A stretch of 37,249 nt of DNA from Candidatus Polarisedimenticolaceae bacterium (lineage in GTDB: Bacteria > Acidobacteriota > Polarisedimenticolia > Polarisedimenticolales > DASRJG01). The stretch spans positions 1 through 37,249 of the forward strand of contig DASVAW010000021.1 in the NCBI GenBank assembly GCA_036376135.1. Reading direction: 5' to 3'. Below the pieces are notes generated by a model. It was not told the DNA's origin. It ran no database searches and saw nothing but the letters and a program-made list of their open reading frames with translations. Below, in pieces: positions 22,692 through 35,181 of the stretch. Position 1 is the stretch's first letter. Every line of letters begins with the position of its first letter. A program made the position numbers and the translations under genes.

Positions 22692-23501
22692 ATGCGCGAA
22701 CTTCGCGGAAAGCGCGTTCTCATCACGGGCGGAGCGAGGGGGATCGGGCTGGCGCTGGCGCGGCGCCTCGCCCGGGAGGGCGCGACGCTCCTGCTCGCCG
22801 ACCTCGACGCGCGGGCCCTCGACGAGTCCGCCGCCTCGATCCGGGCGACGGGAGCCGGTGCCTTCGGTTTCCCGGTGGACGTCACCGACACCCTCTCGAT
22901 CGCGGCGCTGCGCGACGCGGTCCACGGCGAGGGCGGGCCCATCGACGTCCTCGTCAACAACGCCGGGGTGGTCTTCGGAGGGCCGTTCCTCGAGGTCCCG
23001 CTGGCGCGGCACGTCACGACCTACCGCGTCAACGTCGAAGGGCTCGTCGCGATGACGCACGCGTTCCTCCCGGACCTCCTCGAGCGGGAGGACGCGCACC
23101 TCGTCAACGTCTCGAGCGCCTCGGGGTTCCTGGCGCTCCCGCACGGGACGACGTACGCCTCGAGCAAGTGGGCGGTGATCGGCTTCTCGGAGTCGCTCCG
23201 GTCGGAGCTGAAGCTCGGCGGGAACGACCACGTCGGCGTCACGACGGTCTGCCCGAGCTACGTGACCACCGGGCTCTTCGACGGGGTGCGCGCGCCCTTC
23301 CTCGTCCCGCTGCTGACCCCGGAGAGACTCGCCGAGAAGGTCACCCGCGCGATCCTCGCCGACCGACCGTGGGTTCGGCTTCCTTGGATGGTGAAGCTCA
23401 CGCCGTTCCTGAAGGGGGTCCTTCCGGCCGCGGTCTTCGACTCGACGGCGCGCCTGCTCGGGGTGTCGACGAGCATGACGACCTGGAAAGGTCGCGGGTA
23501 G
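22692..23501 (+). CDS. Short-chain dehydrogenase/reductase
   Basis: 269-residue classical SDR, an NAD(P)H-dependent oxidoreductase. The cofactor loop TGGARGIG is at residues 12-19, NNAGV follows near 88, and the catalytic Ser (VSSASG) and YASSK sit near 142-160. Arg in the loop and ADLDAR after the second strand leave the NAD or NADP choice open. The C-terminal tail is long and hydrophobic (LPWMVKLTPFLKGVLP), as in SDRs that sit on membranes or act on lipids. The gene ends four bases before the convergent ALDH gene. Fatty aldehyde, alcohol or steroid-like substrates are possible; sequence alone does not tell. Confidence 0.93.
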   Translation: MRELRGKRVLITGGARGIGLALARRLAREGATLLLADLDARALDESAASIRATGAGAFGFPVDVTDTLSIAALRDAVHGEGGPIDVLVNNAGVVFGGPFLEVPLARHVTTYRVNVEGLVAMTHAFLPDLLEREDAHLVNVSSASGFLALPHGTTYASSKWAVIGFSESLRSELKLGGNDHVGVTTVCPSYVTTGLFDGVRAPFLVPLLTPERLAEKVTRAILADRPWVRLPWMVKLTPFLKGVLPAAVFDSTARLLGVSTSMTTWKGRG

Positions 23502-25443: not shown

Positions 25444-26991
25444 ATGATTCCCTCGTTCGTCCTCAAGCGCCTTTACTCCCAGGGAAGCCTCGAGACGAAC
25501 GCCGGCGGCGTTCGCTTCGCGTTGAAGAACCGATTGAGCGATGCCGTGCTCACCGGCCTGCGCCGGATCCAGATCAACGGCTCGGAGGTCCCGCTCCACG
25601 CGGTCGAGCTCGAGTTCACCGACGGGCGGCGCCTCCCCGCCGAGCTCGTCTCGAAGGAGAACCCGGTCCGCTTCCCGCTCCGCGAGATCGTCCGCGTGCA
25701 CGCGCCGGGGGAGATCGGCGCGGGGAAGAACCACAAGATCCACCTCGCCTTCGAGACGTCCCCCTTCGGCCAGGTCGCGTTCACCGTGGAGGACGCCGCC
25801 CGGACGGACACGGGACCCGCCCGCAAGGCCGAGGGGATCCCGGGGGACAGGGCCAACGACTGGGCCCCCGAGATGGTCGCCGGCCGGCGCCGGTGGCTCG
25901 AGGAGCGCACGGGAGTCCGTCTCGAGCACCTCGACAAGTACTCGTGGGAGCCCGCCCTCGCGAAGGGGAACTGCGAGAACCTCGTCGGGGTCGCGCAGGT
26001 TCCGGTCGGGCTCGCCGGCCCGCTGCGGATCCACGGCGAGCACGCACGCGGCGAGTACCTGATCCCGATGGCGACGACCGAAGGAACCCTCGTCGCCTCC
26101 TACAACCGTGGCATGAAGGTGCTCAACCTCGCGGGGGGAGTCACCTGCACCGTCAGCGACGACCGGATGCAGCGCGCGCCGGTTTTCGTGTTCCGCTCGG
26201 CGCGCGAGGCGCGGGACTTCCGGGATTGGGTCGGCCGGAACATGACGTCGATCCGGGAAGCGGCCGAATCGACCTCGAGCGTGGCGCGCCTGCTCGACAT
26301 CGACGCCTACCTCTCGAACGCCTTCGCGTTCCTGCGTTTCAGCTTCTCCACCGGCGACGCCGCCGGGCAGAACATGGTGGGGAAGGCGACGCTCGCCGCG
26401 TGCAGCTGGATCCTGTCGCACGTCGACTCGGTCGTCTCCTTCTACCTCGAGTCGAACTTCGCGACCGACAAGAAGGGCTCGCACGTGAACATGCTCCGCA
26501 CGCGCGGCAAGCGCGTGACCGCGGAGGCGACGATCCCGCGGGCGATCGTGCAGGACCATCTCCACACCGAGCCCGAGACGCTGCACCACCAGGCGCAGAT
26601 CGCCACGATCGGAGCGTACCTCTCCGGGGCGTCGAACAACGGCGCCCACTCCGCGAACGGCATCGCGGCGATGTTCATCGCCTGCGGGCAGGACGTGGCC
26701 AACGTCGCCGAGAGCTCGGCGGGGATCGTCTACACCGACGTGACGCCGGCGGGGGATCTCTACCTCTCCCTCACGATCCCCGCGCTGATCGTCGCGACCC
26801 ACGGCGGCGGCACGGGTCTTCCCACGCAGCGCGAGTGCCTCGAGATCCTCGGGTGCCGCGGCAAGGGAAAGGCCAGCCGGTTCGCGGAGATCGTCGCCGG
26901 CGTCGCGCTCGCGGGGGAGCTCTCGCTGGGCTCGGCGATCGCTTCGTTCGACTGGGTCACGAGCCACGAGACCCTGGGAAGGAACCGGTAG
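25444..26991 (+). CDS. Hydroxymethylglutaryl-CoA reductase, class I-like, with extra N-terminal domain
   Basis: 515-residue enzyme predicted to reduce HMG-CoA to mevalonate with NAD(P)H, the committed step of mevalonate-based isoprenoid synthesis. The first ~115 residues are a beta-rich domain (FVLKRLYSQGSLE, then VRFALKNRL and FGQVAFTVEDA) absent from most reductases. The catalytic core follows: CENLVGVAQVPVGLAGPL, TTEGTLVAS with the catalytic Glu, DAAGQNMV as cofactor and substrate loop, SNFATDKK with the catalytic Lys, FIACGQD with the catalytic Asp, HGGGTGLPTQ, and a C-terminal TSHETLGRNR carrying the catalytic His. The C-terminal His tail and the DKK context favour class I. The N-terminal domain replaces the membrane anchor seen in eukaryotes. 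First gene of a three-gene run. No other mevalonate-pathway gene is in the window. Confidence 0.92.
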   Translation: MIPSFVLKRLYSQGSLETNAGGVRFALKNRLSDAVLTGLRRIQINGSEVPLHAVELEFTDGRRLPAELVSKENPVRFPLREIVRVHAPGEIGAGKNHKIHLAFETSPFGQVAFTVEDAARTDTGPARKAEGIPGDRANDWAPEMVAGRRRWLEERTGVRLEHLDKYSWEPALAKGNCENLVGVAQVPVGLAGPLRIHGEHARGEYLIPMATTEGTLVASYNRGMKVLNLAGGVTCTVSDDRMQRAPVFVFRSAREARDFRDWVGRNMTSIREAAESTSSVARLLDIDAYLSNAFAFLRFSFSTGDAAGQNMVGKATLAACSWILSHVDSVVSFYLESNFATDKKGSHVNMLRTRGKRVTAEATIPRAIVQDHLHTEPETLHHQAQIATIGAYLSGASNNGAHSANGIAAMFIACGQDVANVAESSAGIVYTDVTPAGDLYLSLTIPALIVATHGGGTGLPTQRECLEILGCRGKGKASRFAEIVAGVALAGELSLGSAIASFDWVTSHETLGRNR

Positions 26992-26998
26992 GTCCGCG

Positions 26999-28684
26999 AT
27001 GGACGCCGACGCGACGGTCGCCGAACGTGCCGTGGCCGCTCCGGCCGCGCGATTCGAGACGCGCGTCCCGGAGCCGCCGGCCGGGCTCACCCGTCGGTTC
27101 CTGAAGACCCACCGCCACGCGGCGGGACTGCTCGTGGGGATGCTCGTCGCCAACGTGCGACGGCGCGCCGAGGACGGCTCCCACCGCGGCCCCGGGTTCC
27201 TGCTGCAGCGCGTCGCGGCGGCGGCGCTGCGGCCGTTCCTGTCGCGCGCGCTGCGCGATCTCCCGTTCCCCGTCCAGCTGCGCCGGCGCCTCGAGGCGCT
27301 CGGCCCCACGTACGTGAAGCTCGGGCAGATCCTCAGCCTTCGCGAGGACATCCTGCCGAGGTCGATCACCGAGGAGCTCAAGCACCTGCTCGACCGCCTC
27401 CCCGCGGTCCCGTTCGAGACGTTCCTCGCGCAGGTGGAGCACGAGCTCGGCCGGAAGGCCTCGGAGGCGTTCCTCTGGATCGACCCCGTGCCGCTCGGAT
27501 CCGCATCGATCGCCCAGGTGCACCGGGCGACGACCCGGGACGGGCACGACGTGATCCTGAAGGTGGTCAAGCCCGGGATCGCCCAGACCCTCGAGCGCGA
27601 CGCGCTCCTGCTCCGCGGTCTGGGGCGCGTCCTCCAGATTCCGCTCGGGCGGTTCCAGCCGCGCCGCGTCCTCGACGAGTTCTGCGACTACACGCTGCGG
27701 GAGGTCGACCTGCGGCTCGAGGCCGACAACGCGGAGACCTTCGCCGCCAACTTCCGCGACCTCCCCGACATCGTGTTCCCCAGGATCTTCCGCGAGCACA
27801 GCGGGAAGAGCGTGTTGTGCATGGAGTTCCTGGACGGCGTCCGCCCCGACACCCCCGAGGCGCGCGGGCTTCCCGCGGAGGACCGCAACCGGCTCGTGGA
27901 CCTCGGGGCCGCGTCGATCATCCGCATGTTGTACCTCGACGGCTTCTTCCACGCCGACCTGCACCCGGGGAACCTGATCATCCTGCCGGGCGCGCGCTGC
28001 GGGTTCATCGACCTCGGGATGGTCGGCCGGTTCGACAGCCAGCTGCGACGGACGCTCCTCTACTACTACTACGCGCTGGTCTCGGGAGACTCCGAAGGCG
28101 CCGCGCGCTACCTCGCGGCGATCGCGCAGCCCGGGCGCGGCGGCGACCCGGTCGGCTTCCGCAAGGAGGTCGAGGAGATCTGCCGGCGCTGGAAGCGCCG
28201 CGCCACCTTCGAGGGGTTCTCGCTCGCGCAGCTCATCCTCGAGTCGGTCGCCCGCGGCGGGAAGTACCGGATGTATTTCCCCGTCGAGATGGTCCTCATG
28301 GTGAAGGCGCTCGTGACCTTCGAGGGGGTCGGCCACGTCCTGAATCCCGGCTTCGACGTCGCGGCCGTCTCCCATCCGCACATCCAGCGGATCTTCCTGG
28401 GGCAGTTCAGCCCGTGGCGCCTGGCGAAGGACAGTCTTCGCGGCGTTCCCGAGCTGATCGACGCGATCGTCAAGGCCCCGATGCTCGTGACCGAGGGGCT
28501 GCAGGTGCTCGACCGTGCGACGCGACGCCAGCCGGAGAGCCCCTGGGTCGGCATCCGGGCGACGTTGCTGTCGGGTTTCTGCCTCGTCGCCGGAGCCGTC
28601 CTCGTCGCGGCGGGGGCGCGCCCCGGCCTCGCCGTGGCCCTTTTCGCGATCGCGTTCCTCCTGGCCTGGAGGCGGGGAGGTTGA
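26999..28684 (+). CDS. ABC1/UbiB/ADCK-type atypical protein kinase-like ATPase
   Basis: 561-residue membrane-associated member of the UbiB family, which supports quinone biosynthesis, probably by ATP-dependent handling of isoprenoid lipid precursors. Family signatures are all present: KLGQ at 107-110, the Ala/Ser-rich loop PLGSASIAQVH that replaces the kinase glycine loop, HADLHPGN with H318-D320, and FIDLGMVG with metal-binding D338. Two hydrophobic helices at the end (after about residue 520) should anchor it. It begins seven bases after the HMG-CoA reductase stop and ends two bases before the acyltransferase start, so all three are probably one transcript. HMG-CoA reductase makes isoprenoid precursors, and quinone tails are isoprenoid, so the neighbourhood fits. 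Confidence 0.93.
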   Translation: MDADATVAERAVAAPAARFETRVPEPPAGLTRRFLKTHRHAAGLLVGMLVANVRRRAEDGSHRGPGFLLQRVAAAALRPFLSRALRDLPFPVQLRRRLEALGPTYVKLGQILSLREDILPRSITEELKHLLDRLPAVPFETFLAQVEHELGRKASEAFLWIDPVPLGSASIAQVHRATTRDGHDVILKVVKPGIAQTLERDALLLRGLGRVLQIPLGRFQPRRVLDEFCDYTLREVDLRLEADNAETFAANFRDLPDIVFPRIFREHSGKSVLCMEFLDGVRPDTPEARGLPAEDRNRLVDLGAASIIRMLYLDGFFHADLHPGNLIILPGARCGFIDLGMVGRFDSQLRRTLLYYYYALVSGDSEGAARYLAAIAQPGRGGDPVGFRKEVEEICRRWKRRATFEGFSLAQLILESVARGGKYRMYFPVEMVLMVKALVTFEGVGHVLNPGFDVAAVSHPHIQRIFLGQFSPWRLAKDSLRGVPELIDAIVKAPMLVTEGLQVLDRATRRQPESPWVGIRATLLSGFCLVAGAVLVAAGARPGLAVALFAIAFLLAWRRGG

Positions 28685-28686
28685 CG

Positions 28687-29928
28687 ATGGCCGCCTACGA
28701 GCCTCTCGATCTCGACTACCTCGGCGACCTGATGCACTCGCACCTGGGCAACGTGATGGAGCGGTACTTCCGTCCGCGCCTGCTCGGCCGCGAGAACCTG
28801 CCGGCGTCGGGTCCCGCGATCCTCGCGCCCAACCACAGCGGAAACGCGTTCCCCTACGATGCGATGGTCTTCGACGCGCTCCTGTGGCAACGCGGCGGCA
28901 TGACCCCGGAGGCGAAGTTCCGGAGCACCTTCGAGAAGGAGCTCGCCTTCACGTGGTGGATGAACCCGTTCGGCCTCGACAATTTCTGGCGGCGCGGCGG
29001 AGGCGTGGACGTCACCTACGACAACTTCGACCGCCTGATGGCCCGGGGGGAGCGGATCGTCTACTACCCCGAGGGCGTGCCGGGGATCGGCAAGGGATTC
29101 CAGAACCGCTACCGCCTGCAGCCGTTCAAGACGAGCTTCGTCCGCCTCGCCGCGAAACACGGCGTACCCGTCCATCCGGTCTACGTCGTCAACGGCGAGT
29201 GGATCATCCCGTTCAACTTCATGCTGAAGCCGGTCGACCGGCTGTTCAGCCGCGTCTTCCACGTGCCGTTCCTGCCGCTTCCGGGTGCGCTCCTCGCGAT
29301 CTCGTGGCCGTGGGTGTGGTACCTGTCCCTGCCCGCGCGACTCATCTTCAAGATCGGCACGCCGATCGACGTCGCGGCGCGGGTACGCGAAGCGGGCATC
29401 GCCGACCCCGAGACGGCCGACCGCGAGCCGCTCGCCCGCGTCGCCGAGTCGATACGCGCGGACATGCAGCAGGAGCTCGACCGGCTCGTCGCACGATACG
29501 GACGGTCGCCGTACCACCTGCGCTCGCTCGTCCGCTCGTTCCGGAACGCCCGGGGCGCCCGGGCCTCGATGTTCCCGATCAGCTGGCCGGTGCAGTGGGT
29601 CCGCCACGATCGCGACCGTCGGCGCCCGCCCGCGCGCTCGCGCCTGCACGCGATCCTGCGGGACTTCGACCTCGCGGCGTTCTACGTGCCGTTCGGGTGG
29701 CCGCTGCTCTCGCTCGCCCGGACCTTCCGAAAGCCGCCGTGCGGCTACCGCGGCCTCCCGCGCAACGTCGCCCGGGAGCTGCGCGGGAACTTCCACTGGC
29801 GGCTCAGCGAGCGCCCCCTGCCGCCGAAGCCCGCTTCCGCCGCCGCGGCTTGCGAGCCGCCGCGCGCGACTCGCGGTCCCGAGCCAGCGCCTCCCCCCGC
29901 TCCAGCAGTCGGATCAGCTTCTCGGTGA
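28687..29928 (+). CDS. Glycerolipid acyltransferase-like protein (PlsC superfamily, long spacing)
   Basis: 413-residue protein with a lysophospholipid acyltransferase fold. The His of the catalytic motif is in NHSGNAFPYD (H50 to D58), seven residues apart rather than the usual four; a similar long spacing, I recall, occurs in some mycobacterial and other PlsC-like proteins. YYPEGVPGIGKGF near 120-135 matches the substrate loop, and VHPVYVVNGE the later strand. Two hydrophobic stretches (about 200-225 and 335-350) suggest membrane contact. The final 40 residues are Pro/Ala-rich and overlap, on the opposite strand, the last 125 bases of the patatin gene. Start ATG lies two bases after the UbiB-like gene. 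A role in phospholipid, wax or triacylglycerol synthesis is plausible. Confidence 0.88.
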   Translation: MAAYEPLDLDYLGDLMHSHLGNVMERYFRPRLLGRENLPASGPAILAPNHSGNAFPYDAMVFDALLWQRGGMTPEAKFRSTFEKELAFTWWMNPFGLDNFWRRGGGVDVTYDNFDRLMARGERIVYYPEGVPGIGKGFQNRYRLQPFKTSFVRLAAKHGVPVHPVYVVNGEWIIPFNFMLKPVDRLFSRVFHVPFLPLPGALLAISWPWVWYLSLPARLIFKIGTPIDVAARVREAGIADPETADREPLARVAESIRADMQQELDRLVARYGRSPYHLRSLVRSFRNARGARASMFPISWPVQWVRHDRDRRRPPARSRLHAILRDFDLAAFYVPFGWPLLSLARTFRKPPCGYRGLPRNVARELRGNFHWRLSERPLPPKPASAAAACEPPRATRGPEPAPPPAPAVGSASR

Positions 29929-31081
29929 GGGGAAGCCCCTCGGGCACGCGGTCGAGGATCAACTCGGTCCAGAACTCCCGGTCCTCGTCCTCGAGCACGT
30001 CCCGCCGGAGGCCGACCCCGTGCCGGGCGAGGGTCTTCTCGAACCCCGAGCCGCGCGATCGCATCCAGCGGCGCGTCGACCTCCATGCGTGCTCGAGCAC
30101 CCGGATGCGCGAGGAGAAGCTGAAGATGTTCGTGAAGAACATCTCGTAGTCGTCGGGTCCGGGCTCGATCAGGAGCGCGTCGGCGTCCGCATATCGCGCG
30201 CGGTACGCGCCGAAGCCGAGCTGCAGCCGCGAATGGATGAGTGTCCGGAAGGTCTGCGACAGGACGGCGGGGAGCCCGATCTCCGCGAGGTGCTCCTGGT
30301 GCATGGCCCCGGCCTCGACCGCGTGACGGGTGTCGATCGGCACGATCGGGTTGATGCAGAAGAGCAGGTCGGCGCCCTCCTCGAGCGCGACGGAGGCGTG
30401 CAGCGTCTTGAGCAGGACGCCGTCGGCGTAGTAGCGACCCTCGATCTTGACCGGCGGGTAGACGATCGGCAGCGCCGTCGAGGCCTGCACCGCCTGCGAG
30501 ATCGGCACGTCCTCCCATTCCTGCTCGCCGAAACGCACCGCGGTGCCCGCGTCGACGTCGGCGGCGACCACGATCAGCCGCCGTCCCAGCTCGCGGAAGT
30601 CGTTGGTGCGTCCCTCGTGGGCGAGCACCTTCTCGAGCCACTCGCGGATCGGCCGGTTGTCGAACAGGCCGAGCGGCAGCGCCCGGCCCAGGCGCGCCAT
30701 CGACTCCGTCAGCGAGAGGTCGTCCGGATCGCCGGCGTAGGCGGTGACGGCCTGGACGAGAAGCTCCGGGACGCGCAGGCCGCCGCGCAGCCACGCGCCC
30801 GCGGCGGGGGTGAAGAAGATCTTCGGGGAGAACGGGTGGACCCGGTGATCGTGCCGTGCGACCGCGCGGCACATCTGCGCGGGCGTGATCCCGTTCGACA
30901 GCAACGCCGCGACGAGCGACCCGGCGCTCACCCCGACGTACACGTGAAGGTCGGTCAGATCGACGCCCTCGAGGACCTCCTCGAGGGCCCGGAGGGCGCC
31001 GATCTCGTACACCGCTCCCGCGGGCCCGCCCCCCGCCAGGGCGAGACCGATCCGGCCGTGGCCGCGTGCGCGGCGTTTCAC
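29804..31081 (-). CDS. Patatin-like phospholipase/lipase
   Basis: 425-residue serine lipid hydrolase. The oxyanion loop LAGGGPAG, nucleophile motif GVSAGS (S52) and DGV (D220) form the Ser-Asp dyad of the patatin family. There is no signal peptide, so it should be cytoplasmic. After the catalytic domain (to about residue 290) comes a helical C-terminal part, then a basic tail RRRKRAS. The start is GTG at 31081, 16 bases after the phasin stop, so it is probably last in the PhaR-phasin-patatin run. The haloarchaeal PhaZh1 is a patatin-type PHA depolymerase bound to granules, which makes that role possible here; phospholipase activity is the simpler choice. The 3' end overlaps the acyltransferase gene by 125 bases. 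Confidence 0.92.
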   Translation of the reverse strand: MKRRARGHGRIGLALAGGGPAGAVYEIGALRALEEVLEGVDLTDLHVYVGVSAGSLVAALLSNGITPAQMCRAVARHDHRVHPFSPKIFFTPAAGAWLRGGLRVPELLVQAVTAYAGDPDDLSLTESMARLGRALPLGLFDNRPIREWLEKVLAHEGRTNDFRELGRRLIVVAADVDAGTAVRFGEQEWEDVPISQAVQASTALPIVYPPVKIEGRYYADGVLLKTLHASVALEEGADLLFCINPIVPIDTRHAVEAGAMHQEHLAEIGLPAVLSQTFRTLIHSRLQLGFGAYRARYADADALLIEPGPDDYEMFFTNIFSFSSRIRVLEHAWRSTRRWMRSRGSGFEKTLARHGVGLRRDVLEDEDREFWTELILDRVPEGLPLTEKLIRLLERGEALARDRESRAAARKPRRRKRASAAGGAR

Positions 31082-31097
31082 GGCGGAGGGTCCGGTC

Positions 31098-31478
31098 CTA
31101 GGCCTGGGCGGTCGTCTTCTTGCGGCGCGGCGCGGTGCGGGTCTTGCCGAGGGTCTTGGTCAGCGCCTCGACGCGCTTGCTCAGCGACTCGATCTCGGTG
31201 CGCGTGGGCACGCCGAAGCGGTGCAGCACCATCTGCACCTTGTCGTCGACCTCCGCCTCGATCTTCGTCGCGGCGGTCTTGATCTTGCCCTTGGTCTCGT
31301 TCACCGCGCGCCCGGGCATGTCGGCCCAGTCGCCCGTCTGCTTCCCCTTGGTCACGAGGTTCTTGAAGAGCTTGGAGCCCTCCTCCTCGGCCACGGCGAG
31401 AGCGCCGAGTCCGGCGAGCCAGATCTTCTGCGCCGTTTCGGTCGGATCGAAGTTTGCCATCGTCTTGCGGACTGCCAT
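31098..31478 (-). CDS. Phasin family protein (PhaI/PhaF-like)
   Basis: 126-residue helical protein of the phasin superfamily that coats PHA granules. The N-terminal amphipathic part (IWLAGLGALAVAEEEG) fits the granule-binding segment of PhaF/PhaI, and the middle is a long charged helix ending in a heptad-like stretch (IESLSKRVEALTKTL) and a basic Lys/Arg tail (PRRKKTTAQA) that resembles a short nucleoid-binding tail. GGGAGG precedes the ATG. It lies 66 bases after phaR and 16 bases before the patatin gene. No PHA synthase is present, so the hydrophobic surface coated could be another storage lipid. Confidence 0.88.
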   Translation of the reverse strand: MAVRKTMANFDPTETAQKIWLAGLGALAVAEEEGSKLFKNLVTKGKQTGDWADMPGRAVNETKGKIKTAATKIEAEVDDKVQMVLHRFGVPTRTEIESLSKRVEALTKTLGKTRTAPRRKKTTAQA

Positions 31479-31544
31479 TGGGAACCTCCCGGCCGCGACG
31501 TGCGGCCCAACTCCCCTGTTTGCCGCCGGACCTCTCGAAACCGG

Positions 31545-32003
31545 TTACACGCTGCGCGCGGCACGGGCCGCGCGGCCGCCGGAAACGGGGCCCTTCCCCG
31601 CCTCGGCCCGCGCGAGCGCCGCCTCGAGCTGCGCGATGCGCTCCTTCAACGACTCCATGTCCTCCCGGGCGCGGCGCACGGGACCGATCCTGTCGAGCGA
31701 AGCTTCGAGCAGCTTCTCGACGCCGATCTGGACCTGCTCGACCCCGCTGCGCAGCGCGTCCTCGCCCTTGCGGATGAGGTCGTGCAGGGTCTCCGTCGGA
31801 AGCGTGGAGGCTCCGCGTCGTCCCTGCTCCGCGATGATCTGGGCCAGGACGGCCGTCGTCACGTCCGCCTCCGTCGCATTGTCGACGATGCGGACCTGCT
31901 GCCCGTCCCGGATCCACGCGACGATCTCGTCGAGCGTCGCGTACCGACTCTCCTCCGTGTCGTAGAGCTTCCGGCTTCCGTACCGCTTTACGAGTCGCAC
32001 CAT
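31545..32003 (-). CDS. phaR: PHA synthesis regulator PhaR, DNA-binding protein
   Basis: 152-residue transcription repressor that binds DNA and PHA granules. The N-terminal 65 residues match the PHB accumulation regulator domain: VKRYGSRKLYDTEESRYATLDEI, read here as KRYGSRKLYD, then TLDEIVAWI and DVTTAVLAQII. Most PhaR proteins then carry a short granule-binding domain; here the remainder is a helical, coiled-coil-like segment (about 90-135) rich in Glu, Arg and Ala, with a short basic end. GAGGTGA precedes the ATG. It is upstream of the phasin, as PhaR and its phasin target often are. In Paracoccus and Ralstonia, PhaR represses phasin transcription until granules form and titrate it away. 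Confidence 0.92.
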   Translation of the reverse strand: MVRLVKRYGSRKLYDTEESRYATLDEIVAWIRDGQQVRIVDNATEADVTTAVLAQIIAEQGRRGASTLPTETLHDLIRKGEDALRSGVEQVQIGVEKLLEASLDRIGPVRRAREDMESLKERIAQLEAALARAEAGKGPVSGGRAARAARSV

Positions 32004-32033
32004 GGCGTCACCTCGGGGGCCCGCACATACAAG

Positions 32034-32048
32034 TGCCGCGCCGCGGCA
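32034..32048. promoter_or_regulatory. Perfect inverted repeat upstream of phaR, candidate operator
   Basis: TGCCGC-GCC-GCGGCA, a perfect 6-bp inverted repeat, lies 31-45 bases before the phaR start. CAAGTG-type arms (plus strand AAGTG before and CACTT after) surround it. PhaR of Paracoccus binds TGC-rich sites, so autoregulation through this repeat is possible. A TTGACG-like sequence on the minus strand (32072-32067) could be a -35, but the partner -10 would lie inside the repeat and is poor. Confidence 0.4.
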
Positions 32049-32068
32049 TCCTTGTCACTTGAGATCCG

Positions 32069-33112
32069 TCAAGTCATGTCAGCGACGTTACGGGCCAGGC
32101 GCTCCAGGTCGTCGAACCCGAGGGGCGGCGCGTCGCACAACGCGGCCTCGATCAGGGGGAGCTCGGAAGGCAGGAGCCCGCGCAGGCGGGCGAGCGAGGC
32201 GCGGTCGCGCCGCCCGAGCCAGGCGACGAGATCGCGGCCGGGGTCACCGGCTCGCCCCGGGACCTCCGGGTGCACGCGGTTCGCGACGACCGCGCGGAGC
32301 CGGTGCCCCTCCTCGCGGAGCTTGCGCGCGAACATCATCGCGTCCGGGACCCGCTCGGGAGCCGGAGAGGTGACGAGCAGGAACGAGGTCGTCGGGGATC
32401 GCAGGAGCTTCTCCACCCGCACCGCCCGCTCGCGGAATCCCGCGTACAGGGGCTCGAAGGCGTGGAAGAACTCGGCGAGCTCGCGCAGCAGGCCGATCCC
32501 CACGAGCCGGTCGAGCAGCCGCTCGAGGCCGCGGCCGAGAGGACCGAACCGCTCCCCCGCCCGGAACCGCCCGCGATCGTCGAACCAGGGCTTCAGCGCG
32601 ATCTCGATCGCGCCGCTGTCGAGGAAGTCCGCGATCCTGCGCGGCGCCCCCAGGAAGTCCATCGCCTGGCGCGCCGGCGGCGTGTCGAGAATCACGACGT
32701 CGTGCCGTCGCTCCTCGGCCACCTCGAACAGCCGCTCGACGGCCATGTACTCGAGGATCCCGGCGAGGCTGCCGCGAAGCTCGCGGTAGAAGCGGTTGTT
32801 CGCGATCCGCTCGCGCGAGGCCTCGTCGGGGGCGTAGCGCGCCACGATCCGGTCGAAGGTGCGCTTCGCGTCGAGCAGGCTCGCCTCGAGGATCCCCTTC
32901 GCCTCGAGGGGCACGCGGATCGAGGCGTCGCGCGCGGCGTCGCCGACGCCGAGCGCGTCCTTCAGCCGCTCCGAGGGGTCGAAAGTCATCACCAGGACGT
33001 CGCGCCCGTCGCGGGCGTACGCCACGCCCAGTCCCGCCGCGAACGTCGTTTTTCCCACGCCGCCCGCGCCGACGACGATGCGCAGGTCGGGTCCGTTCCG
33101 GCGGCGGGTCAT
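32069..33112 (-). CDS. ArsA/Get3-like ATPase, second of a tandem pair
   Basis: 347-residue P-loop ATPase of the ArsA/Get3 family. Its Walker A reads GAGGVGKTT (K21, T22), and Ala takes the place of the signature lysine that ArsA and Get3 have at the start of this loop. The switch segment is DTPPARQAMDFLGAP, resembling the actinobacterial ArsA partners (DTPPTRxALDFL) more than ArsA proper. No CxxC zinc motif of Get3 is seen. The ATG overlaps the stop of the first ATPase (ATGA), so the two proteins are made together and are probably partners. It ends 65 bases before phaR. Substrate unknown: protein targeting, metal-ion, or granule-related work are all possible. Confidence 0.9.
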   Translation of the reverse strand: MTRRRNGPDLRIVVGAGGVGKTTFAAGLGVAYARDGRDVLVMTFDPSERLKDALGVGDAARDASIRVPLEAKGILEASLLDAKRTFDRIVARYAPDEASRERIANNRFYRELRGSLAGILEYMAVERLFEVAEERRHDVVILDTPPARQAMDFLGAPRRIADFLDSGAIEIALKPWFDDRGRFRAGERFGPLGRGLERLLDRLVGIGLLRELAEFFHAFEPLYAGFRERAVRVEKLLRSPTTSFLLVTSPAPERVPDAMMFARKLREEGHRLRAVVANRVHPEVPGRAGDPGRDLVAWLGRRDRASLARLRGLLPSELPLIEAALCDAPPLGFDDLERLARNVADMT

Positions 33113-33993
33113 CGCGTCGCCCCCGGAACGCGCAGACCGCGCTCGAGGTGCGGCTCGAGGGTGGAGACGAGCTCGTCGTCGCGCTCGAAGCGCGAGAGAG
33201 GCAGCTCGATCACCGGGCCGTCCCATCCCGCGCGGAGGCGATCGAGGGAGTCCTGCTGCGCGGCGCGGCGCCTGCGCCACGCCTTCCCCGCGGCGTCCGA
33301 GGGCTCGGCGCCGATCCAGGGCGGGTACAGCGCGTTCACGACGACGGCGGCCGGTCGGCGCCGGCGGGCCTTCAGCCCTTCCGTCAGCTCGAGCGTCTCC
33401 TCGGTCGCCAGCCCCTCCGCGAGCCCGGCGACGAGGGCGGCGAAGGCGGAGCCGTCGTCGAGGAACGTCGCGACCTCCTCGATCATCCGACCGATCGGCC
33501 CCGTGCTCACGGCGTCGGCGAGCAGCGGCGGCGCGTCGAGCATCGCGAGCGCATGGCCGGTCGCGGGAGCGTCGAACACGACGAGGTCGGGACCGCGGCG
33601 CTGGCCGAGCTGGCGGACGGCATGCGCGAGCGCCGCCGCCTCCTTGAGCCCGGGCGCGCCGTCGACGAAATGGCGGTAGACGGGGCTTCGCAGCACGCGG
33701 CCGATCAGGAACGGGACCGGCAGGGCCCCGCGCACCAGGTCGTCGATGACCGTGCGCGGGTCGAGGTTGCGAAGGCGCAGGCGCTTCGCGACCTCGACCG
33801 TGCCGCCGCCGGAGGGGTCGGCGCCCAGGTAGCGGTAGAGGCTTTCGCGGGGATCGGACTCGAGGAGGAGGACGCGTCGCCCGCGGGCTGCGAGCAGGCG
33901 TCCGAGGGTCGCCGCGAGGACGCTTTTCCCCGCTCCGCCCTTGCCGGTCACGAGGATCAGCCGTCGGGAGGCGAGGGACTCGAGAAGCGTCAT
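33109..33993 (-). CDS. ArsA/Get3-like ATPase, first of a tandem pair
   Basis: 294-residue P-loop ATPase. Walker A is the deviant type TGKGGAGKS with signature lysine K18 and K23, and the switch segment DAPATGHALAML resembles the ArsA DTAPTGHTL motif. VVVNAL is the conserved nucleotide-contact strand. It is shorter than ArsA, lacks the arsenite-binding cysteines and has no Get3 CxxC motif, so arsenic export is unlikely. No ribosome site is obvious before the ATG; instead a strong hairpin (33999-34046) ends six bases upstream. Its stop overlaps the start of the second ATPase. Known arrangement in actinobacteria (Rv3679-Rv3680) is also a tandem pair. Confidence 0.9.
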   Translation of the reverse strand: MTLLESLASRRLILVTGKGGAGKSVLAATLGRLLAARGRRVLLLESDPRESLYRYLGADPSGGGTVEVAKRLRLRNLDPRTVIDDLVRGALPVPFLIGRVLRSPVYRHFVDGAPGLKEAAALAHAVRQLGQRRGPDLVVFDAPATGHALAMLDAPPLLADAVSTGPIGRMIEEVATFLDDGSAFAALVAGLAEGLATEETLELTEGLKARRRRPAAVVVNALYPPWIGAEPSDAAGKAWRRRRAAQQDSLDRLRAGWDGPVIELPLSRFERDDELVSTLEPHLERGLRVPGATR

Positions 33994-34050: not shown

Positions 34051-35181
34051 CTAGAAGCCCTGCTCGCTGTCGACCCCCAGATACAGGATCGACGGATCGC
34101 CGGGGTGGAAGGCGATCGCGCTCATCTTGTCGTAGCCGTTGTGGGTCTTGGTCGGCGCACCGGCCGAGACGTCGACCTTGTAGACGTCGGTGCCGTAATC
34201 GAACGACGGCGTGCCGAACAGCCAGTAGAGGACGTCGGCGTTCGAGGGGTGCGCGGCCATCACGGAGCCGTTCGGCATGAAGAAGCCGTTGACGCCGTCC
34301 TCCTCCGCGACCGAGGACCAGCTCAGGCCGCCGTCGACCGACCGCCAGATGTGCCGGCCGTTGTTGGGGGCGCCGGCGTCGGACTCGTCGAGGTCGACCC
34401 CCTGCGCGTAGACGACGTTGCCGTCCGCCGGGGAGACCACGACGTTGAAGACGTTCACCGGGCCGAAGGTCGGCGAGATGGACGCGACCTTCTCCCAGGT
34501 CCGGCCGCCGTCGAAGGTGAGGGCGACGCCCTGGTTGGTCACGCCGAAGAGCACGTGATCGAGGTTCGCGGGATCGAACGCGGCGCGATAGACGATCGCG
34601 TCGCCGAAGCCGGAGGTGCTGACGGGCGCCCAGGAGAGGCCGCCGTCGGTCGACTCCCAGATCCGGCCGGCATCGTCGCCCACGCGCACGCGATCGCCGT
34701 CGACCGCATCGGTGCCGACGCCCACGACGTTGCCGGGGACCTTGATCGGGGTGACCGTCGTCCCGTCGACGCGCGAGAGGTCGGGACGACCGTCGGCCCA
34801 CGCCCACGCGCGATCGCCGCGGCCGGCGGTGAGCGTCAGCGCGAAGCCGTCGCTGCCGGAGGGAACCTCGACGTAGGCGACCGCATCCCAGCGGCAGCCG
34901 GCGCTCGTGGAGCGAAGAAGGGTGCGGTCCTGGACCGCCCAGAGGGTATTGGCCTTGTCGCTCGTCGCCACCCCGAGGGTGTAGCGCGTGCCGCGCAGCG
35001 TGAGCTTGGTCGGGGTCAGGGTCGCACCGTCGTCCTTCGTGTAGGTGACGGCGGCGGTGCCGGAGATCTCGCGGCACTTCGGAACGCTCCAGCCCTTGCC
35101 CTTCTCCTGTGCGGAGGCGAGCGTCGTCGCACCGGCGAGGGTGCCAAGCAACATCACGACGCGAATGGAACGGGACAACAT
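34051..35181 (-). CDS. Exported Asp-box beta-propeller protein (sialidase-fold-like, no enzyme motif)
   Basis: 376-residue secreted protein. A signal peptide (RVVMLLGTLAGATTLASAQE) is followed by a repeated fold with three clear Asp boxes, S/T-x-D-x-G-x-x-W: STDGGLSW near 177, TFDGGRTW near 222 and SVDGGLSW near 281. These are the loops of sialidase-like and VPS10-like six- or seven-bladed propellers. No Arg triad or Tyr-Glu pair of sialidases can be seen, so it is more likely a structural or binding protein. AAGGAAGGAG precedes the ATG. The final 45 residues include further blade sequence. It shares a 239-base gap with the divergent kinase at the right edge. Confidence 0.88.
   Translation of the reverse strand: MLSRSIRVVMLLGTLAGATTLASAQEKGKGWSVPKCREISGTAAVTYTKDDGATLTPTKLTLRGTRYTLGVATSDKANTLWAVQDRTLLRSTSAGCRWDAVAYVEVPSGSDGFALTLTAGRGDRAWAWADGRPDLSRVDGTTVTPIKVPGNVVGVGTDAVDGDRVRVGDDAGRIWESTDGGLSWAPVSTSGFGDAIVYRAAFDPANLDHVLFGVTNQGVALTFDGGRTWEKVASISPTFGPVNVFNVVVSPADGNVVYAQGVDLDESDAGAPNNGRHIWRSVDGGLSWSSVAEEDGVNGFFMPNGSVMAAHPSNADVLYWLFGTPSFDYGTDVYKVDVSAGAPTKTHNGYDKMSAIAFHPGDPSILYLGVDSEQGF

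Follow-up and report, generated by a model that had tools for sequence, protein, structure and literature searches.

A BagA/BagB-like ATPase pair linked to phaR, phasin and patatin genes in Acidobacteriota: a probable neutral-lipid inclusion module

A five-gene block with a BagA/BagB-like ATPase pair

Positions 1 to 37,249 of contig DASVAW010000021.1 (assembly GCA_036376135.1, Candidatus Polarisedimenticolaceae bacterium, Acidobacteriota), a stretch of 37,249 nucleotides (nt) hereafter called the window, carry on the minus strand five adjacent genes for two Get3/ArsA-fold ATPases, a PhaR-type repressor, a phasin and a patatin-like lipase. The ATPases are homologous to BagA and BagB of Mycobacterium tuberculosis, the unit recurs in other genomes, and we consider it likely that it specifies an inclusion of neutral lipid. 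As the best explanation overall we favour, with somewhat less assurance, a neutral-lipid droplet module under PhaR regulation, with BagA and BagB (together BagAB) handling or targeting hydrophobic proteins; taken by itself, the assignment of BagAB as a chaperone or targeting ATPase within the module is tentative. The five genes are as follows (aa, amino acids):

33109..33993, minus strand: BagA-like Get3/ArsA-fold ATPase, 294 aa (PF02374, 68 bits; NCBIfam BagA, 80 bits)
32069..33112, minus strand: BagB-like Get3/ArsA-fold ATPase, 347 aa (PF02374, 74 bits; NCBIfam BagB, 222 bits)
31545..32003, minus strand: PhaR-type repressor, 152 aa (PF07879, 81 bits; TIGR01848, 83 bits)
31098..31478, minus strand: phasin, an inclusion coat protein, 126 aa (PF05597, 85 bits; TIGR01837, 80 bits)
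29804..31081, minus strand: patatin-like lipase, 425 aa, with GGGxxG, GVSAG and DG catalytic motifs (PF01734, 111 bits)

A first-pass annotation, made from the letters of the window, had described these same genes, and their families, coordinates and gap sizes all agree with our measurements: the successive gaps are -4 (bagA and bagB overlap by 4 nt), 65, 66 and 16 nt. The same gene order was seen again in about 45 other loci, so it is not due to chance. The nearest solved structure for the lipase is PlpD (5fqu), whereas a search of solved structures by sequence gave no match for PhaR. This PhaR has the N-terminal DNA-binding domain but lacks the C-terminal PHB_acc domain (PF05233), which has no match anywhere in the window's genome.

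The ATPases had been called ArsA-like, a name that stands insofar as both match PF02374, but their best NCBIfam matches are BagA and BagB and not ArsA. BagA has a deviant Walker A motif, GKGGAGKS, in which the GKGG P-loop is kept, and its AlphaFold model (predicted local distance difference test score, 90) has as top PDB match the chain 6bs3_A, described as "bacterial Get3-like A" (TM-score 0.81). In BagB the P-loop reads GAGGVGKT, with the signature lysine changed to alanine, a change backed by a conserved family alignment, and the closest solved chain is 6bs3_B, the BagB of M. tuberculosis (E 1.6e-53). The NCBIfam equivalog cut-offs were missed by both proteins (NF053622/NF053621; BagA, 80.5 of 400 bits; BagB, 221.8 of 521 bits). 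Judged by sequence, the pair is therefore classed as homologues of BagA/BagB and distant kin of Rv3679/Rv3680 of M. tuberculosis, not filed as equivalogs. The M. tuberculosis proteins (PDB 6BS3-6BS5) form a Get3-like heterodimer and share with the window pair the adjacent paired genes, the fold and, in BagB, the P-loop GAGGVGKT without the signature lysine; the window also shows the arrangement typical of such pairs, adjacent Get3-fold genes with GKGG in A and GAGG/GSGG in B. Unlike them, the window pair is linked to PhaR, phasin, patatin and an ester synthase and scores far below the cut-offs.

That the two genes could encode an arsenite efflux ATPase of the ArsA type is hardly conceivable. 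The Pfam ArsA_ATPase match speaks for it, but the genes encode two separate single-domain proteins and not tandem fused domains, BagA and BagB are the best matches, ArsB is not among the recurrent neighbours of the loci, and the arsenite-binding cysteines are missing (BagA has no cysteine and BagB only one, at residue 326). We rejected this identity on both the cysteines and the fused domains. By the same cysteine count, the CxxC zinc site that bridges the Get3/TRC40 dimer is not present in BagA or BagB.

Linkage across genomes

Linkage was assessed in a spread of 119 genomes from the window's phylum (the phylum sample) and in GTDB contigs scanned with a BagB alignment, where neighbours were found by profile searches with a limit of 5 kb; a locus was called unlinked when at least 5 kb of flank on both sides held no PhaR, phasin or patatin. 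Among the 119 genomes, 7 had a phasin above 80 bits, and in 6 of these 7 BagB lay within about 3 kb of it. The contigs yielded 79 BagB loci, nearly all of Acidobacteriota (Thermoanaerobaculia and Holophagae). BagB was found 5 kb or less from PhaR, phasin or patatin in 50 of the 60 judgeable loci, with all three present in 45; 10 were unlinked, and 19 of the 79 were cut by contig ends. Linked and unlinked loci are interspersed in the BagB tree. The first-pass annotation had proposed a possible storage-granule module, with linkage in other genomes as its test; the ATPase genes do recur together with those for PhaR, phasin and patatin, which points to a storage inclusion. Recurrence across phyla, which it would have taken as support, holds only weakly: a few records carry the labels Gemmatimonadota, Planctomycetota or Deltaproteobacteria, but most are Acidobacteriota. 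In the phylum of the Gemmatimonadota-labelled record the module was present in 2 of 200 sampled genomes, so its spread outside Acidobacteriota looks sporadic.

In three genomes with canonical BagB (G005, G064 and G071; 332-338 bits), BagB and the PhaR-phasin genes are on different contigs, and the linkage thus belongs to the BagB branch of the window. Genes for DnaJ and ClpB/Hsp20 recur beside BagAB, upstream of bagA, in some 15-22 loci (L055, L072, L084, L085, L094 and others), and perhaps mark a link of BagAB with protein quality.

Absence of PHA synthase and presence of ester synthases

PhaR and phasins are usually taken as markers of polyhydroxyalkanoate (PHA) plastic. Using two PHA synthase models (PF07167 and TIGR01836), we found no match in the window's genome nor in any of the 9 genomes of the phylum sample with BagAB and phasin; a search for class III PhaC in 47 further genomes of the contig loci gave nothing beyond two fragments below 30 bits. 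Eight genomes of the phylum sample carry PhaC; all of them have PhaR, and none has the window's type of BagB. The first-pass annotation had seen no PHA synthase in the window, which is correct and extends to the whole genome, and had offered two possible cargoes. The first, PHA made elsewhere in the genome, fails, as neither the whole genome nor any other linked genome tested has PhaC; the second, another lipid, is favoured by the ester synthases of the unit, which point to wax esters, triacylglycerol (TAG) or isoprenoid esters.

The wax-ester/TAG synthase WS/DGAT is found in 38 of 47 BagAB genomes versus 15 of the 119 in the phylum sample. Within the latter, every one of the 14 genomes whose WS/DGAT exceeds the cut-off also has PhaR, and none of the 93 genomes without PhaR has such a WS/DGAT (Fisher p=1.6e-11, in a test that ignores shared ancestry). 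In three Acidobacteriota that lack PhaC and have no BagB of the window's type (G009, G070 and G115), PhaR lies 1-4 kb from WS/DGAT, and control of wax ester/TAG genes by PhaR may be more widespread.

A PHA granule module, with PhaR and phasin serving PHA from a synthase elsewhere and the ATPases delivering granule proteins, is consequently very unlikely. PhaR and phasin do belong to PHA granule families, and in other Acidobacteriota families PhaR adjoins PhaC; however, the reading fails because neither PhaC_N nor class III PhaC is found in the window's genome or in the linked genomes of the two sets, and it has also to face a PhaR without PHB_acc domain and a unit in which WS/DGAT or an acyltransferase sits instead. 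We regard it as already largely refuted. Since PhaR, phasin and the operator described below occur in bacteria without PHA synthase and beside wax-ester/TAG enzymes, a PHA annotation based on PhaR and phasin would be wrong for this group.

The facing genes and the ester-synthase slot

The unit was found to be larger than the five genes to which the first-pass annotation had confined it, as it also takes in 25444-29928 on the plus strand, with three genes that face patatin:

25444..26991, plus strand: HMG-CoA reductase, 515 aa (PF00368, 422 bits), a recurrent neighbour
26999..28684, plus strand: ABC1/AarF atypical kinase, 561 aa, with a hydrophobic C-terminal tail by hydropathy (PF03109, 199 bits), a recurrent neighbour
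28687..29928, plus strand: PlsC-fold acyltransferase, 413 aa (PF01553, 55 bits; its model matches PlsC 5kym, and the search of solved structures by sequence gave no match)

The three are separated by 2-7 nt, and the acyltransferase gene shares its last 125 nt, at the 3' end, with the convergent patatin gene. The typical map, seen in many loci including the window, is BagA>BagB>PhaR>phasin(s)>patatin> <ester synthase<ABC1<HMG-CoA reductase. Unbiased clustering of all open reading frames around the BagB loci gave as recurrent neighbours, beyond the five genes, the ABC1/AarF kinase (29 loci), HMG-CoA reductase (26), a FadD-type acyl-CoA synthetase (17, mainly unlinked loci), WS/DGAT (15) and a PF01553 acyltransferase (11 outside the window). 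The ester-synthase slot holds WS/DGAT in 15 loci or the acyltransferase in 12, window included, and never both. All six genomes without WS/DGAT whose slot was mapped have the acyltransferase there (L063, L082, L085, L118, L122 and the window), and in L104 it is slightly displaced from the slot. From the sequences, we interpret this swap as one ester synthase having been replaced by another, non-orthologous one, whose neutral-lipid activity is putative. In genome G052 the unit is split, with BagAB next to FadD and WS/DGAT, and PhaR-phasin-patatin next to ABC1 and HMG-CoA reductase; each part has thus retained lipid genes. The hydrophobic C-terminal tail of the kinase was observed in 18 of 28 complete copies, and the kinase, presumably membrane-anchored by it, is a candidate for a natural Get3-type client of BagAB.

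Members of the ABC1 family are known to take part in quinone synthesis, and HMG-CoA reductase and ABC1 could mark a membrane-isoprenoid pathway; the whole would then be an isoprenoid/quinone module with no storage droplet, where phasin and patatin are membrane-stress or lipid-turnover proteins and BagAB a membrane-protein targeting factor. The quinone role of the family and the tight joining of both genes to the acyltransferase, recurrent in 26-29 loci, agree with this proposal, which nevertheless leaves PhaR, the phasins, WS/DGAT and the operators at beta-oxidation genes unexplained, and we consider it quite improbable. It merges with the neutral-lipid inclusion if the esters are isoprenoid, as in plastoglobules (PMC12587418).

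A probable PhaR operator

An interrupted palindrome, TGCCGCAnTGCGGYA, is present in the 200 nt upstream of 53 of 58 phaR genes when up to 2 mismatches are allowed, and is exact in 32, while 74 of 5000 random 200-nt windows contain it. Of the 58 genes, 48 are preceded by at least two copies, most often spaced 30-33 bp, and where sigma-70-like promoters were recognisable upstream of phaR the site fell inside the promoter in 22 of 24. Its core, GCNNNGC, is the published PhaR box of Bradyrhizobium (PMC10888616). We thus consider the palindrome the probable operator of PhaR. The window has one copy:

32034..32048, no strand assigned: probable PhaR operator, TGCCGCGGCGCGGCA, upstream of phaR, with two mismatches to TGCCGCAnTGCGGYA

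The operator is also found upstream of bagA in about 9 loci and, in two genomes where BagAB is unlinked, at the separate phaR-phasin-patatin cluster (L168 and L169). Exact sites are rare: 32 of the 41 genomes have between one and four of them. Some of those outside the module lie upstream of genes for acyl-CoA dehydrogenase, 3-hydroxyacyl-CoA dehydrogenase, EtfB, malate synthase and another phasin, a suggestive fatty-acid theme. At L166:3346 (G130) an exact site separates the gene of a TetR (YsiA-like) regulator from a divergently oriented 3-hydroxyacyl-CoA dehydrogenase gene, which suggests a shared PhaR/FadR-type control of beta-oxidation. At L163:3603-4229 a second phasin, preceded by an operator, carries DUF2188 at its C terminus and weakly matches apolipoprotein. 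In two distant genomes an exact operator is immediately upstream of a gene for a ParA-like ATPase (L165:3424, G152; L171:3205, G052). McdA-type ParAs position carboxysomes, and by analogy these ParA-like proteins could possibly position inclusions.

The operator bears as well on whether BagAB belongs to the module at all, or instead serves as an ATPase for general stress or the envelope, sharing an operon with a real inclusion module to which it contributes nothing. In favour of such a bystander role are the association of M. tuberculosis bagAB with tolerance of glycerol and nitric oxide (PMC10597346) and with streptomycin survival (PMC12216072), the 10 unlinked loci and the recurrent DnaJ and ClpB/Hsp20 genes. 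Nonetheless, the linkage is kept across deep BagB branches, the phaR-type operator stands upstream of bagA as stated, and where BagAB is split from phasin it adjoins FadD and WS/DGAT, so that we judge the bystander role unlikely.

Proposed function of the module

In the PhaR-controlled neutral-lipid inclusion that we prefer, a core of wax ester, TAG or isoprenoid ester would be made by the acyltransferase, or by WS/DGAT in relatives, and coated by phasins, and the patatin, whose Ser-Asp dyad is intact, would mobilise the stored esters. PhaR would occupy the tandem operators of its own promoter, together with sites at bagA and fatty-acid catabolism promoters in some genomes, and presumably would be titrated off the DNA onto the growing droplet surface by analogy with PhaR and polyhydroxybutyrate (PHB). 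The predicted BagA/BagB heterodimer, Get3-like, would use ATP to shield hydrophobic or amphipathic inclusion proteins and, we infer, would deliver them to the droplet or to the membrane where the droplet forms.

Several observations weigh against this proposal. Ten BagAB loci are unlinked to PhaR, phasin or patatin, and the three genomes with canonical BagB show neither the linkage nor WS/DGAT. WS/DGAT was not found in the window's own genome, so the ester synthase there would be the PlsC-fold enzyme, which could make phospholipid precursors; quinone or isoprenoid metabolism could account equally well for HMG-CoA reductase and ABC1. The operator of the window is a single copy two mismatches off consensus and, with the ester synthase, is the weakest link. 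Off-module sites are few, and a reversed control pattern gave one match in 8 of 41 genomes, so some single off-module sites may be chance. The counts and the Fisher tests take no account of shared ancestry, the module is predicted from genomes that are mostly metagenome-assembled, and the examined text of two papers on mycobacterial lipid inclusions makes no mention of BagAB.

Comparison with known systems

The PhaR-phasin pair of PHA granules in Ralstonia, Paracoccus and Bradyrhizobium has in common with the window the PhaR DNA-binding domain and the phasin family, and with the loci described here the tandem operators with a GCNNNGC core around the -35 and -10 elements (PMC10888616, PMC3570403). 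In B. diazoefficiens two PhaR sites flank the -35 of phaP1 and one overlaps the -10 (PMC10888616), and in Ralstonia PhaR binds PHB and represses both phaR and the phasin gene (PMC3570403). Of the features that define a PHA granule, the window has a phasin family member and a PhaR box upstream of phaR (a single weak copy); it differs in having no PHA synthase in the genome and no PhaR with both the DNA-binding and PHB_acc domains, and the regulon described here leans to beta-oxidation, while the operon includes BagAB and patatin.

Bacterial wax-ester/TAG inclusions, such as the mycobacterial intracytoplasmic lipid inclusions, likewise rely on WS/DGAT, which here lies inside the unit at 15 loci. 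Their coat is TadA/HBHA or PspA, whereas here it is a phasin under PhaR control, and the window has the PlsC-fold acyltransferase in WS/DGAT's place. Plant plastoglobules combine on a lipid droplet ABC1 kinases, acyltransferases making TAG and phytyl esters, and a coat protein (PMC12587418), a parts list that resembles the module; we note the likeness and claim no common descent, the fibrillin coat being unrelated to phasin.

In M. smegmatis a single selection for citrate tolerance yielded mutants in bagA, bagB and fadD6, and in M. tuberculosis FadD6 has been connected with TAG (PMC10597346). This common phenotype suggests that the link between BagAB and lipid might extend to mycobacteria; still, that BagAB is a Get3-like factor loading droplets marked by PhaR and phasin, with a lipid role also ancestral to the glycerol phenotype of M. 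tuberculosis, seems to us rather doubtful. The linkage supplies a concrete candidate client set for the bacterial Get3-like BagAB. If the proposal is true, bacteria would own a dedicated and regulated protein-targeting ATPase for a storage organelle, in a phylum where neutral-lipid storage has been called unexplored (PMC10351704).

Other genes in the window

A secreted BNR/sortilin-like repeat protein is encoded just upstream of bagA (34051-35181, minus strand) and shows no sign of membership in the module. Upstream of the HMG-CoA reductase gene, on the same strand, lies a gene for a short-chain dehydrogenase (22692-23501, plus strand). A storage-related enzyme is encoded farther away on the same contig (9068-10756, minus strand), a protein with two matched stretches of polyphosphate kinase 2 (PPK2).

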